This document shows positions 4,007-23,790 of a stretch of 24,396 nucleotides of DNA, in pieces. Source of the stretch: a virus; IMG/VR virus record IMGVR_UViG_3300032284_000439, positions 1-24,396 of that record. One strand, written 5' to 3'. Position 1 is the stretch's first letter. Each line of letters begins with the position of its first letter. Both the position numbers and the translations under genes were made by a program. The notes under the pieces are model-generated. The model worked only from the letters and a program-made list of their open reading frames with translations, ran no database searches and was not told where the DNA came from.

Positions 4007-4219
4007 TCACTCATCTTTATCATCATCTAACCCCATAAAGCCAGACCCCCATTCATCATCTTGCATCTTCATCTTGATTGCCTCAAGTTTTAATGCTCGA
4101 TCTATTACTTTAGTTTTATCATTGATGGTAGCAGTAGGGTCAACCATGACCGCCTTCAGCATCTCTGCAATGGCTTTCTCCAGTTCTGGGTTCAGACCTT
4201 TATCTTTCTTCTTGCTCAT
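4007..4219 (-). CDS. Hypothetical small phage protein, 70 aa
   Basis: A 70-aa charged protein: a Lys-rich start ([15 protein letters not shown]), a helix ([21 protein letters not shown]), a second helix ([20 protein letters not shown]) and an acidic end ([13 protein letters not shown]). The DPTAT...[16 protein letters not shown] pattern is familiar from short hypothetical proteins in phages; I cannot attach a proven role. The size and helical acidic/basic layout loosely recall small terminase-related proteins, but there is no helix-turn-helix and the gene is far from where packaging genes are expected. The start is supported by the ATGA overlap with the upstream DUF6496-like gene. The stop at 4007 is followed by a 32-nt gap with the next gene's ribosome site. 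Confidence 0.65.
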
Positions 4220-4368
4220 CTTTTAGCCTTGCGCTTTCCCTTCTTGCTCTTCCTGGCAGAAGATAAAGCAATGGCAATGATCTGTTTTTGGGGTCTCTTA
4301 CCCTTGTGCATCATCTCTCTGATGTTCTCAGAAATCACTTTTTTAGATGAACCTTTTTTAAGTGGCAT
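4216..4368 (-). CDS. DUF6496-like small basic phage protein, 50 aa
   Basis: A 50-aa protein starting [20 protein letters not shown], continuing [20 protein letters not shown] and ending in a run of Lys and Arg. The [16 protein letters not shown]...GxPxKQxxAIAxxxA pattern matches my memory of the DUF6496 family, small proteins of phages and bacteria without known function. The start is decided by a very strong TAGGAGG 4 nt before ATG 4368, which overlaps the end of the large gene upstream only at its ribosome site. The stop overlaps the next start (ATGA). Its predicted shape is an alpha-helix with a basic tail, suggesting nucleic-acid or membrane-surface contact; this is inference. It is one of several tiny basic proteins in this genome region. 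Confidence 0.75.
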
Positions 4369-4376
4369 ACGTCCTC

Positions 4377-6362
4377 CTATCTTGGATATTGTTCTGTTGC
4401 GCCTGGTAAAGCATAAGGTGCGACATAACCTTTGGTCATTGCACCTGTGACTTTTCTTTGCTGCTCTTCTGCTTTTCGAGCCAATGCCAGTTTTTCTGCC
4501 AACTGCTGAGAAGTTACCCCAGGAGTCAACAAAGATTGTTGGATAGATGAAGTTACTGGCGGGGTCAATCCTGTGGTTTTACCGTAGACGGTAGGAGCCA
4601 GTTGTAATGCTGCACTTTGAAAATCACCTTTTAATAAAGGAGATAAAAAACCAATATCTGCTCTACCTAATTCACCAATATCACTCTCTCTTGGTGCGGT
4701 TTGAGATCCAGCTCTAGGTGCGACAAAACCCCTAGTTCTTGCCATTAGCTGTTCTGTTTCCATCCTGTTAGCAAATACCCTAAATGCTGCCTCACTAGGA
4801 AATATTGGACGCAAAGCATCAATCATTTCTGGTTTGTCAAACAAAGCCTTTGCTTTATCCACCATAGAACCTTTGCCAGACAATATATCTTTCATGGCTT
4901 GTGCAGCGCCAAGTCTAAAAAATTCTCTCTCTGAAGGATTTAGTTGATTAAATTCATAAGCAACATTGGTAGGATCCATGTTGAATACTTTTCTACCTTT
5001 GTCTATCATCTTTTCTGATCTGTAAGGACCAGCATAAAGTTTTCTGGCTTGTCCATAATCAGGATTAACTTTGTCCAAATAGGCAAGAAAATCTTTTTTT
5101 AACTCTATTAAACGAGTACCTTGAGGACTAAATTTACCTAATGAGTCTTGTTGTTTGTCAATGGCATCATCTAATCCCTCTTTGATTAACTTGTAAATAG
5201 CAAAATCATTTGTTTCTGGTTTTACTTTTAAGTTAATAATGTTTCCTTTTCTGTCTCTTACAGGAATCGTTACTACTTCTTCTAATTGATCAGAGACATT
5301 AGGTATAGGTTGACGCATTGTTCTCAATGCCTCTTTGCCATCAGCAATAACGCTTTTTGGCATGGCATTGATTAAAGTTGCCAACTCCTCAGTATTTTCT
5401 ATTTTGACTTTATCTGCATTTTTATAAAAAGGTGCAGAAGATTCTTTTTTTATTTTGTCTAAACTTCTTTTTACTTCATTTATATCAACACCTCTTTTGC
5501 CCGTCATTGTTTGTTCTATGTCTTTGACAATGCGGTTATATTGTTGTTTTTGTCTTTCATCTAAAAACTTTGTTGTGGCTTGTCTAGCATCACCAGGTAC
5601 ACCAGCTGCACCTCGCATCAAAGCCTGGACATTTTCTCCAGCAACGTCAGCAACCGTTACTTCCGCACCTTTGCCAGACTTTTTCATCTTTTCTATCAAC
5701 TCTTCTGGAGTTGTTTTGTCTGCCTCAAGTGCAGCTGCTATTTTTCTAGCTGCTTGAGTTTCTGGATTACCAAACAAAGTGCGGAATGCTGGACCAGCAA
5801 CATTTACAATACCGCCTAATGCTAGACCAGCTGAACCTCCAGTAACTGTTCCACCTAAGACCGCCTGTGGAACATCTTCTATTTTTTCAGCACCACCCGC
5901 ACCAAACTTTCCACCTATCTCTGCACCGCTAATTCCCATCTTGATAAACTCAGGAAGGGATTGATACAGACCAGGACTGTATTTTTCAATGGCTTTTAAG
6001 GTTAAGTCACTGACCATGCCACCTACTCTCTCGGCAGCCTTTGCAGCGGGTTGTAATGCTTTTACAGCTCCCATACCACCAGTTACTATTGCTGGTGCTA
6101 CTGCCCCCGCCATCTGATAACCCGCAGCCTTCAAAGGGTCTGTCTCTTCATATTCTCTTAGTTGTTGACGTTCTGCCTTGACCGCCTCCTCATAACTGGG
6201 TTGACCAGGTATAAGTGACCGCCCAGCTGCCAGAGCCTCTTCTCCAAACCCAAACGTCATTCCTTGCAAAGCCTCTTTTAACTCTGGTCCACCAGGAATA
6301 GGTTTGACTTGTTTGGGTGCAATCAAGTCACTTAGGGTCATGCTGCTTTCTTTATCTGCCAT
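4377..6362 (-). CDS. Large internal virion (ejection) protein candidate, 661 aa
   Basis: A 661-aa protein with three visible regions. Residues 1-75 include [14 protein letters not shown] and an acidic/basic helix ([20 protein letters not shown]). Residues about 80-200 are glycine/alanine-rich and moderately hydrophobic ([34 protein letters not shown]), resembling glycine-zipper membrane-active segments. The remainder is long charged helices ([36 protein letters not shown]) with a conserved-looking [16 protein letters not shown]. The first part strongly recalls internal or injected proteins of short-tailed phages that enter the cell envelope with DNA. ATG 6362 is preferred over ATG 6374 because GAGG lies 6 nt upstream of it; it overlaps the preceding gene by 11 nt. 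It follows three other low-complexity or coiled-coil proteins in one transcript. No lysozyme-like domain could be recognised, so the specific activity remains unknown. Confidence 0.6.
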
Positions 6363-21236: not shown

Positions 21237-21722
21237 TTACATTGGGGGTGGTGTCATTCCACCAGGAGGTGGAGGGGGGGGAGGTAATCCACCACCAGGT
21301 GGTGTCATACCAGGGGGAGGTGCTGCAGCAATTGACTTGCTCTCAGGTGTTGCACCACCCGCCTGGGGCAATGATTGCAACATCTGGATAATCTCAGATT
21401 GCTGTAATTCGTTGGTCTTGTTTTTACGGGGTCCAAGCACTTTGTTAAGTGTGGAGATGGCAGACAGAACGGCTTTGCCTTCTTCTGTATTGCTGCCAAT
21501 GTTTGCCAGGGCTTGCTCAAGTAAGTCTTGAGCCATACCCAAATTGATCATGGATGCCTCTTTAGAACCCATCTTAGGTTCTGGCGTAGACATGGGCGCA
21601 CCCATAGGTGGCGTTTCTGCATCAGGCGCACCGCCTGGTGGCATTGGAGGAACAGGGACAGGAGCGCCAGCAGACCTTGGTCCACCCATCAACTCCATCA
21701 ATTTATCTTGAGGTACGCTCAT
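21237..21722 (-). CDS. Proline/glycine-rich helical protein, 161 aa
   Basis: A protein of 161 aa when started at ATG 21722, which follows AAGGAG by 5 nt; the frame is open 27 codons further back, but the start there has no ribosome site. The first part is Pro/Gly-rich (MSVPQDKLMELMGGPRSAGA, PPMPPGGAPDAETPPMGA), then a helical core (KEASMINLGMAQDLLEQAL, NTEEGKAVLSAISTLNKVLG, LQQSEIIQMLQSLPQAGG), and finally a Pro-rich tail with seven consecutive prolines. The core is a pattern I recall between portal and scaffold in other phages. The poly-proline tract would slow ribosomes and need EF-P. It may be a minor head-assembly protein; function unknown. Confidence 0.68.
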   Translation of the reverse strand: MSVPQDKLMELMGGPRSAGAPVPVPPMPPGGAPDAETPPMGAPMSTPEPKMGSKEASMINLGMAQDLLEQALANIGSNTEEGKAVLSAISTLNKVLGPRKNKTNELQQSEIIQMLQSLPQAGGATPESKSIAAAPPPGMTPPGGGLPPPPPPPGGMTPPPM

Positions 21723-21740: not shown

Positions 21741-21769
21741 TTTGTAACCACTTACTAACTTTTTGTCAA
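21741..21769 (-). promoter_or_regulatory. Sigma70-like promoter candidate before the head operon
   Basis: On the minus strand a perfect TTGACA (-35; 21769-21764) is separated by exactly 17 nt from TACAAA (21746-21741; 4 of 6 -10 matches). Transcription would begin about at 21734, leaving almost only the ribosome site before ATG 21722. That very short leader weakens the case, although the position just before the head-assembly genes is fitting. Confidence 0.4.
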
Positions 21770-21775
21770 GTGGGT

Positions 21776-21801
21776 GGGGGGTATTTAGCGACATACCCCC
21801 C
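21776..21801. repeat. Perfect 9-bp GC-rich inverted repeat
   Basis: GGGGGGTAT (21776-21784) and ATACCCCCC (21793-21801) pair perfectly around an 8-nt loop (TTAGCGAC on the plus strand). Neither strand has a T-run after the stem, so it is not a normal Rho-independent terminator. It sits between the micro-ORFs and the promoter-like site, so it may pause polymerase, stop RNA decay, or be a protein-binding site. Confidence 0.65.
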
Positions 21802-21818
21802 AATGTCGTTAAGCGAAA

Positions 21819-21854
21819 TTACTTACGCTTGTGTTTGCGTGCTTTGCGTGCCAT
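21819..21854 (-). CDS. Micro-ORF, 11 aa basic peptide (MARKARKHKRK)
   Basis: An 11-codon frame ending TAA with AAGGAG 7 nt before ATG 21854; nothing in frame extends it upstream. All residues except Met and three alanines are Arg, Lys or His. It shares the 13-nt sequence ATGGCACGCAAAG with the 13-codon frame about 80 nt upstream, so the two look like duplicates. It may encode a real peptide, or act as a leader whose translation influences the hairpin at 21776-21801. Function unknown. Confidence 0.45.
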   Translation of the reverse strand: MARKARKHKRK

Positions 21855-21929
21855 GATGCAACTCCTTGAGCAGCGGCCACCTTTTAAAAGGGAAGGCAGC
21901 CAGACCCTTCTTCCTTTGCAAGGAAAATC

Positions 21930-21971
21930 TTACCGTCTGGTTTTCTTGCCTTTGCGTGCCATCTTGTACAT
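21930..21971 (-). CDS. Micro-ORF, 13 aa basic peptide (MYKMARKGKKTRR)
   Basis: A 13-codon frame on the minus strand, ATG 21971 to TAA 21930-21932, with AAAGGA 6 nt before the start, a spacing as good as those of the neighbouring full-length genes. It is followed by a TTCCTT-GCA-AAGGAA hairpin. A second in-frame ATG gives MARKGKKTRR, which aligns with MARKARKHKRK of the next micro-ORF. Very basic, no other recognisable feature. Confidence 0.45.
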   Translation of the reverse strand: MYKMARKGKKTRR

Positions 21972-21994
21972 GATAAATCCTTTGTGAGTAAGTG

Positions 21995-22165
21995 TTAACT
22001 TTTGGCGTAAGACCTTTGTGTCCTACCGCCAGTTGAGTTTTTAACACCAGTTTGCCTGTATGTCAATCCTGGACCAGAAGATTCTTTTCTTAAAGTTTCA
22101 GAACTGACTCTAGGCTGATCTGCCCTCGGCTGCGTTTGCGGTCCCCCGACATTTTTAGTTGCCAT
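21995..22165 (-). CDS. Hypothetical protein after the portal, 56 aa
   Basis: A 56-aa hydrophilic, likely disordered protein beginning MATKNVGGPQTQPRADQPRV and ending RTQRSYAKS. It is tied to the portal gene: portal stop TGA and this ATG share a base (TGATG), with AAGGTGG just before. A tandem ATG three bases upstream could also start it. It contains no motif or membrane segment and I do not recognise a family. Basic (Lys/Arg) and Gln/Ser-rich composition is similar to the other small genes around the portal and scaffold. Coding is supported by the overlap and the ribosome site rather than by homology. Confidence 0.6.
   Translation of the reverse strand: MATKNVGGPQTQPRADQPRVSSETLRKESSGPGLTYRQTGVKNSTGGRTQRSYAKS
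22038..22066 (-). promoter_or_regulatory. Second sigma70-like promoter candidate, within the 56-aa gene
   Basis: The minus strand reads TTGACA (22066-22061), a 17-nt spacer, then TAAAAA (22043-22038), 4 of 6 -10 matches. Transcription would start near 22031 inside the 3' end of the 56-aa gene and run into the micro-ORFs and head genes. Coding constraint in the same bases lowers confidence. Two such matches within 300 nt upstream of the head operon are nonetheless suggestive. Confidence 0.35.
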
Positions 22166-23790
22166 CATCCCACCTTTTTAAGATCAGGTTTACCCTCTTT
22201 GACTTGCGGAGGAGCTGGGGGTTGCCCAGCTTTCTTTTCCTCCATTCGTTTTAGGCGATCTTTCAACTCCTCTTTCATGGGGGGTTCGATCAAGTCCAAC
22301 AAGGACTCTTTATCAATTGCACCCGCCTTGAGTAAGTTAAACGCCAATTGTCTATTGTCTTCCATGAAGATGGGGGAATTGCTGTGCGCGTCCACCTTCA
22401 CCGTAAAGTTCTTTGTGAATTGTTCTGCAATGAATGCGTGACCAGCTGTGTCTCTGAAGTGCGTGTCATCATAGAGTTGCATTGCTTTGAGATACAAAGT
22501 AGCCAGTTTCTCCAGGCTGTCTTCGATCACCAGAGCGCGTTTTTTAGTCCTGGACGATCCAAGTCTAGCCAGTTGTGAGGCGTGACCCGCAGAACGAACC
22601 CCCGCCTCTCCCTTACCAGAGAGAACATTACCGATACCAGATGCCTCTTCAAACATAGCATCCACCTCTCTGATCTCGGTGAACAGATCAGGTGGCATAT
22701 TGGGAGCCATTTTTTCTACTTTGGCGTTGGGCATATCTGTAGAGAGTAACCCCCCCGCGCGGTTGAGTGCGAAATTCTTCTCATCTAAGATGCCTGTAAA
22801 TCCGATCAGAGCCGTAGGGGGAGATACCTGTTTGGACAAGAGATCAAGTATCTCTGTCATGCGTCTGTTTCTCAGCTGCTGCAGATACACCAGGCGTTGC
22901 ACTTCACTTGCACCCCAGTAGTAGTCATAGAGCGGATTAGGGCAAATCTGAATGAAAGGCAATTCACCTTTGATGAAGAGTGACTCACCTGGGCGGTCAT
23001 AAATGATGACATCTGGGTCTGCCTTGGTGACTACGCGGTAATCTTTTTCATCATCATCCCAGACCCAGAGTTCTGTCATCTCAACGGTATCTTCTGAGAC
23101 TTCTGCCTTGTACCTGTTGCCACCCGCCAAATCCAGATTGACGTTACCGTAAATGGTTGGGTTGGATTGACTGATAATGATACGTTCTAACCCGTTGGCA
23201 ATTTCTGTGCGTTCATGGGGCATAGAACCTACGCGCTGCACAATCTCTTCCCGTCTGGGGTGAGAGTACAAGCGAGAGTACAGTTCAGACTTGGTGATGT
23301 AGTATTTTTGAATCAACGCCTCTTGTCTGTCTGTGTAGGTGATGTCTTCTCTCAGAACACCCATGCTGCCAGGCTCCACCATGTAGGGGTGGATGCCGTT
23401 GTTCATAATCAGTTTGACGTAGGTTGTTCCGTAGACGAGAGACCAGGTGGTTGCCGTTGAGAACACCTGGTCAGCATTCGAGTTGAGCCATTCATCATTC
23501 AGCGCCTTGGTCAGCACTGGGACTTTCTGGTGTTCGTTGGGTGGCGTAGATGCCCCCAGGTTGATGCTGAACCTGGTGGTCTCAGCTGAGTACAGGAAAG
23601 AGGTCAGCTGATCCAGATGAGGGAAAATCTTGTTGTAAAGAGCTGGAGCCTCATCAGGACCGTTACCAAACAGATACCAATTGCGTAGAGAGGCGTAATC
23701 TACCTTGCGAGAGTTCAGAGACACTTCGCACTTGTAAATTACATTTCTGAAAAACTCATCTCTCTCTTGCGCGTTCTTTGGTATCTTCAT
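22165..23790 (-). CDS. Portal protein, 541 aa
   Basis: A 541-aa protein with the layout of phage portal proteins: helical N-terminal wing (ERDEFFRNVIYKCEVSLNSR, YASLRNWYLFGNGPDEAPAL, FPHLDQLTSFLYSAETTRFS), a central region with QVFSTATTWSLVYGTTYVKL and VEPGSMGVLREDI, then strands around MTELWVWDDDEKDYR and a stem/clip (PFIQICPNPLYDYYWGASEV, QQLRNRRMTEILDLLSKQV). Long C-terminal helices follow (MFEEASGIGNVLSGKGEAGV, AGHASQLARLGSSRTKKRAL, DSLEKLATLYLKAMQLYD). The portal is the dodecameric vertex through which DNA is packaged and ejected. The start shares an ATGA with the preceding gene's stop, and the Pro-rich basic C-terminus runs into the 56-aa gene. The length is normal for podovirus-type portals. 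Confidence 0.88.
   Translation of the reverse strand: MKIPKNAQERDEFFRNVIYKCEVSLNSRKVDYASLRNWYLFGNGPDEAPALYNKIFPHLDQLTSFLYSAETTRFSINLGASTPPNEHQKVPVLTKALNDEWLNSNADQVFSTATTWSLVYGTTYVKLIMNNGIHPYMVEPGSMGVLREDITYTDRQEALIQKYYITKSELYSRLYSHPRREEIVQRVGSMPHERTEIANGLERIIISQSNPTIYGNVNLDLAGGNRYKAEVSEDTVEMTELWVWDDDEKDYRVVTKADPDVIIYDRPGESLFIKGELPFIQICPNPLYDYYWGASEVQRLVYLQQLRNRRMTEILDLLSKQVSPPTALIGFTGILDEKNFALNRAGGLLSTDMPNAKVEKMAPNMPPDLFTEIREVDAMFEEASGIGNVLSGKGEAGVRSAGHASQLARLGSSRTKKRALVIEDSLEKLATLYLKAMQLYDDTHFRDTAGHAFIAEQFTKNFTVKVDAHSNSPIFMEDNRQLAFNLLKAGAIDKESLLDLIEPPMKEELKDRLKRMEEKKAGQPPAPPQVKEGKPDLKKVG

Follow-up and report, generated by a model that had tools for sequence, protein, structure and literature searches.

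Conserved micro-ORFs for polycationic peptides and a covarying pseudoknot next to the portal gene in a group of freshwater phages

Two micro-ORFs next to the portal gene

Can frames of 13 and 11 codons, lying next to the portal gene of a virus, be genes in their own right, and what might their products and the RNA around them do? The window analysed in this study, meaning the whole stretch of DNA examined, is a virus record of 24,396 bases. Two frames on its minus strand, named ORF A and ORF B, lie within the 272 nt separating a 57-amino-acid frame (56 amino acids if counted from the second ATG) from a gene of 161 amino acids. A preliminary description had placed two such frames, each behind a good Shine-Dalgarno (SD) sequence, between genes of 56 and 161 amino acids, and our analysis found both frames intact, with their SD sequences at proper distances, in this gap (Table 1). 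ATG frames of 5-40 codons preceded by a match to the SD of 5 nt or longer occur six times in the whole window, and A and B are two of these.

The portal gene gave PHROG matches, and no PHROG family was found for the flanking 57-, 60- and 161-amino-acid proteins. A megablast search of the micro-ORF region against phage records gave no match, and the micro-peptides are shorter than the 20-residue minimum of profile searches. Another very basic small gene of the window, at 4216-4368 on the minus strand, encodes a 50-amino-acid basic protein matching phrog_2423 (unknown function).

Table 1. Features of the micro-ORF locus in the window
Feature	Position	Strand	Details
Upstream 57-amino-acid gene (unknown)	21995..22168	-	Flanking, after the portal gene
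SD of ORF A	21978..21983	-	AAAGGA, 6 nt 5' of ATG
ORF A	21930..21971	-	13 codons, MYKMARKGKKTRR, stop TAA; ATG at 21971, TAA ends at 21930
Hairpin 1	21909..21927	-	Right behind the stop of A; core UUCCUU-GCA-AAGGAA
H-type pseudoknot	21875..21908	-	Covariation
Pseudoknot S1	21905-21908 with 21889-21892	-	AGGG with CCCU
Pseudoknot S2	21894-21901 with 21875-21882	-	GGCUGCCU with AGGUGGCC
SD of ORF B	21862..21867	-	AAGGAG, 7 nt 5' of ATG
ORF B	21819..21854	-	11 codons, MARKARKHKRK, stop TAA; ATG at 21854, TAA ends at 21819
G-rich hairpin	21775..21802	-	UGGGGGGUAU/AUACCCCCCA, 3' of ORF B, no U-run
Promoter-like element	21741..21769	-	TTGACA-N17-TACAAA, just before the 161-amino-acid gene
Downstream 161-amino-acid Pro-rich gene	21237..21722	-	Scaffold-like position, upstream of the major capsid gene

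Distribution of micro-ORFs in related phages

Related loci were collected by portal searches of viral contigs, one search of genome contigs and two annotated phage genomes (Manatee Spring). The hundreds of loci found in this way gave 240 distinct portal-to-next-gene regions once identical ones were removed. The group consists of freshwater phages; all loci except two are metagenomic, and the few genome bins among them are mixed and may represent contamination. A micro-ORF was defined as a frame, 8-25 codons long, in which lysine and arginine make up 40% or more and which is preceded by an SD sequence, the SD being thus part of its detection. At least one such micro-ORF (one to three) was present in 216 of the 240 regions, whereas the identical scan found none in the 240 antisense strands and 21 in 1200 dinucleotide shuffles. 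The micro-ORFs always adjoin the portal gene. Comparison of their arrangement revealed A then B in 159 regions, only B in 32, only A in 15, other arrangements (mostly three micro-ORFs) in 10 and none in 24; some of the regions counted as holding only B (L012, L018, L159) do hold an A frame that the SD criterion missed.

Regions lacking micro-ORFs belong chiefly to the clade of L160, and a search elsewhere in the genomes of this clade gave scattered chance-like matches only. Absence of the whole cassette shows that the peptides are dispensable there. Three consecutive micro-ORFs were observed in L094, L138, L234, L178, L243, L365 and L396, the extra one usually ending in GRKSCK, with a cysteine. 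A sister clade (L303-L318) carries a single A-type peptide ending in RGRKCRR, with a conserved cysteine, directly behind the 57-amino-acid gene and without the pseudoknot described below.

Evidence for protein-level selection

Among the 393 micro-ORFs of these regions, 390 start with ATG, and their length changes in frame, by whole codons. The peptides have 9-22 residues, mostly 12-14, and are highly basic, with a mean charge of +7.6 over 12.8 residues; an acidic residue is present in just eight of them. A C-terminal RKx[RCK][RK] is common to 351 of the 393 peptides, the A family being conserved in relatives as ..(K/R)(G/S)RK[TSC][RC]R and the B family as (A)RKxRKxRKxRK. When viral contigs were searched with a context-blind degenerate pattern for a 13-codon B peptide, 80 of 80 among the matches listed lay in this phage group. 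Synonymous single-base differences were far above expectation, with omega-like values of 0.05 for A and 0.08 for B from pairwise codon comparisons that are not tree-corrected. Start, stop and SD are conserved across the related genomes, the comparison that the preliminary description had proposed. Conservation of the micro-ORFs, in-frame indels and mostly synonymous changes mark A and B as real protein-coding genes, and in our estimation they are almost certainly genes under strong protein-level selection; the earlier suggestion of real basic peptides, putatively of the virion, thus gains strong support at the level of the genes.

Frames this short might also arise by chance or persist as decayed copies of a longer gene, as had been suggested earlier. 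The 24 empty regions would fit such an origin, as would the isolated broken A copies of L139 (A start lost) and L201 (frameshift in a run of A), which may be sequence errors and are the only interrupted frames among the relatives, interruption having been named beforehand as the finding that would speak against genes. The alignment contradicts this explanation through presence in nine regions out of ten, intact frames, indels in frame, the strong synonymous excess and the empty antisense scan, and we regard functionless frames as extremely improbable and reject decay as a general explanation.

The preliminary description had also pointed to 13 nt, ATGGCACGCAAAG, shared by A and B. The repeat is present in the window; it is not general. 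Across the 161 relatives that carry a pair of micro-ORFs, A and B typically match over 5-9 nt at the longest, and just two of these relatives have a match as long as 12 nt. By this comparison the 13-nt identity belongs to this genome alone and is not ancestral, and duplication at the DNA level as the general state was ruled out. The resemblance of A and B, as read from the aligned peptides, sits at the level of the protein family, basic and ending in RKx[RCK][RK]. A is a paralogue that was lost or multiplied in some lineages, and A and B form one family.

The prediction that gene callers would miss both frames is borne out by MW202753 and MW202825, the two relatives with an annotation, in which antisense 'hypothetical proteins' are annotated over the micro-ORF region (4740-5038 and 25683-25943, respectively). 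An antisense frame was rejected as a real gene, being open across both micro-ORFs in just 79 of 169 regions, and the two annotated proteins are probably spurious calls. Since such calls occupy the site of the micro-ORFs, phage maps may be systematically wrong there.

A hairpin and an H-type pseudoknot precede ORF B

Comparison of the RNA between the stop codon preceding B and the ribosome site of B added an element to the preliminary description. Behind hairpin 1, whose stem of at least 5 bp is found in 81% of 134 distinct segments versus 27% of mononucleotide shuffles, the order along the RNA is S1-UNU-S2-S1'-A-rich loop-S2'. Covariation was analysed in 41 distinct sequences including the window, picked for diversity among loci with a parsable S2. 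Both helices together were 93.9% paired, versus 81.4% with partners shuffled and 40-62% with slid controls. Helix S1, whose pairing played no part in the choice of sequences, was 99.4% paired with double changes in three of its four pairs; S2 was 91.2% paired, a figure partly selected by that choice, with double changes in five of eight pairs. The first S1 pair occurs in four types (AU 22, GC 12, CG 3, UA 3), and the helix as AGGG/CCCU, CGGG/CCCG, UGGG/CCCA, GAGG/CCUC, CCGG/CCGG and AUGG/CCAU. In one lineage, which accounts for 11 of the 41 sequences, mismatches replace the internal UG/GU pairs of S2. The result of a simpler permutation test, run on 131 distinct sequences, is in accord with this covariation. 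Compensatory changes in two crossing helices leave very little doubt that a conserved H-type pseudoknot would form 5' of the SD of B.

Folding of the single intergenic RNA was unexceptional (z -1.25), and the pseudoknot was revealed by comparison only. Rfam searches of the window, of the intergenic stretch at a permissive threshold and of eight relatives gave nothing credible, and no family, the Downstream-peptide motif included, reached its gathering threshold. The L131 group has a shorter variant of the pseudoknot that looks like AGAG/CUCU, and none was recognisable in L143, which holds only B, or found in the A-only clade L303-L318. These loci, with the empty clade of L160, indicate that peptide and knot are not essential group-wide.

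In loci without A, hairpin and pseudoknot lie directly behind the 57-amino-acid gene and before B; their persistence there indicates that the RNA belongs with B. The stop codon of A lies 12-31 nt before S1, and that of the 57-amino-acid gene takes its place where A is absent. In IncI-type plasmids, translation of a leader peptide activates repZ through pseudoknot formation. By the same token A could be a translation device only: ribosomes that terminate beside hairpin 1, on A or on the 57-amino-acid gene, would aid the pseudoknot and so activate B. The placement of the stop codons speaks for this possibility, which we consider quite unlikely given that the A peptide sequence is itself conserved to a degree needless for a pure device.

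The region downstream of ORF B

Of the 216 regions that carry micro-ORFs, 180 have a stem of at least 6 bp between B and the -35 box, in a count made with no shuffled control, and no terminator-like site with a U-run was found on this strand. The stop codon of B itself lies in the loop of a weak hairpin (AAGCG..CGCUU, window 21811-21830, minus strand), and stronger hairpins at this stop occur in relatives, for example AAACGCAA-GUAA-UUGCGUUU in L042. A -35-like TTGAC[AT] is present in 226 of 240 regions versus 12 of 240 shuffled ones, also in clades without micro-ORFs; the full TTGACA-N17-TACAAA of the window was not among the sites listed by a consensus promoter scan. An imperfect palindrome, GTTAGTAA-GTGG-TTACAAAC, overlaps the spacer of this element, and it is perfect in many relatives (GTTTGTAA-GTGG-TTACAAAC), which suggests that element and palindrome constitute a putative regulated promoter for the head genes.

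Tiny frames that carry strong SDs, lie between two parts of an operon and are followed by hairpins recall leader peptides, and the preliminary description had raised leader peptides for the head operon as one option. In this view, ribosomes on A and B would act on the head operon downstream of them through attenuation or coupling. The conserved -35-like box between B and the 161-amino-acid gene makes this role unlikely: if the TTGACA element is the promoter of the 161-amino-acid and head genes, A and B lie outside the leader of that transcript. The missing U-run terminator, the conservation of amino acids and not of codons, and the RNA structure that B keeps upstream of itself likewise weigh against leader peptides, which we therefore consider improbable.

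Proposed function

A and B are accordingly read here as micro-genes, which would specify polycationic peptides 12-14 residues long with a charge near +7 or +8, presumably translated from the terminase-portal late transcript. From their composition, it is on balance likely that the peptides bind nucleic acid, whether by protamine-like charge neutralisation or in the manner of an arginine-rich motif. The RK order of B is held more rigidly than charge alone demands, so rigidly that a specific target is possible. The pseudoknot plausibly regulates B, as its position and the precedent of T4 gene 32 suggest, and may set the level of B translation; free peptide could then bind its own leader in autogenous repression, as T4 gp32 does. 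The combined model, in which polycationic nucleic-acid-binding micropeptides are made with the packaging genes and B is controlled via the pseudoknot, is one that we adopt tentatively, at slightly short of even confidence; the loci in which knot or peptide is missing weigh against it. Its most specific form, protamine-like peptides of 9-22 residues that are packaged or linked to packaging and control themselves through a dedicated H-type pseudoknot, is unlikely to hold in full; if true, a minimal nucleic-acid-binding gene and its own riboregulator would be contained within about 150 nt.

Charge and small size are also general properties of cationic antimicrobial or cell-penetrating peptides, and the products might act late in infection on host membranes, ribosomes or the nucleoid. 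A hydrophobic face and a signal sequence are both missing, and the genes keep a fixed place within the module for packaging and head, which renders a host-directed role rather improbable.

Genes of 10-13 codons are at or under the size where gene finders and databases look, and several hundred natural homologues let protein-level selection be shown at this length. On the codon comparisons, A/B-type genes are among the smallest with strong protein-level conservation demonstrable. The covarying pseudoknot, with no Rfam family, gives a concrete testable regulatory hypothesis.

Comparison with known systems

Protein J of phiX174 and peptide mu of adenovirus are viral packaging peptides that are likewise very small and strongly basic, and they are proven virion components. 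Both are longer than A and B, to which they are not known to be homologous. A catalogue of phage small proteins was reportedly compiled by Fremin in 2022. No earlier description of these micro-genes was found in the literature, the Fremin catalogue lying outside the comparison. What phage small-protein catalogues share with the present locus is short phage genes that standard callers miss, and the small-protein catalogue GMSC covers ORFs of 30 nt or more (PMC11364881).

The Downstream-peptide RNA motif (RF01704; PMC2864571) is a precedent for short conserved frames preceded by structured RNA. As at the phage locus, the case for its short frames came from synonymous substitutions and three-nucleotide indels; that motif is cyanobacterial, with frames of 17-100 amino acids, and the phage locus has no Rfam match. 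In T4 gene 32, a pseudoknot 5' of the SD is bound by the gene's own nucleic-acid-binding product (PMC535899). The T4 product is a folded ssDNA-binding protein, in contrast to the 10-14 residues of the B-type product, and the likeness is one of analogy only: in both, a pseudoknot lies before the ribosome site of a phage gene, and here too the product is expected to bind nucleic acid.
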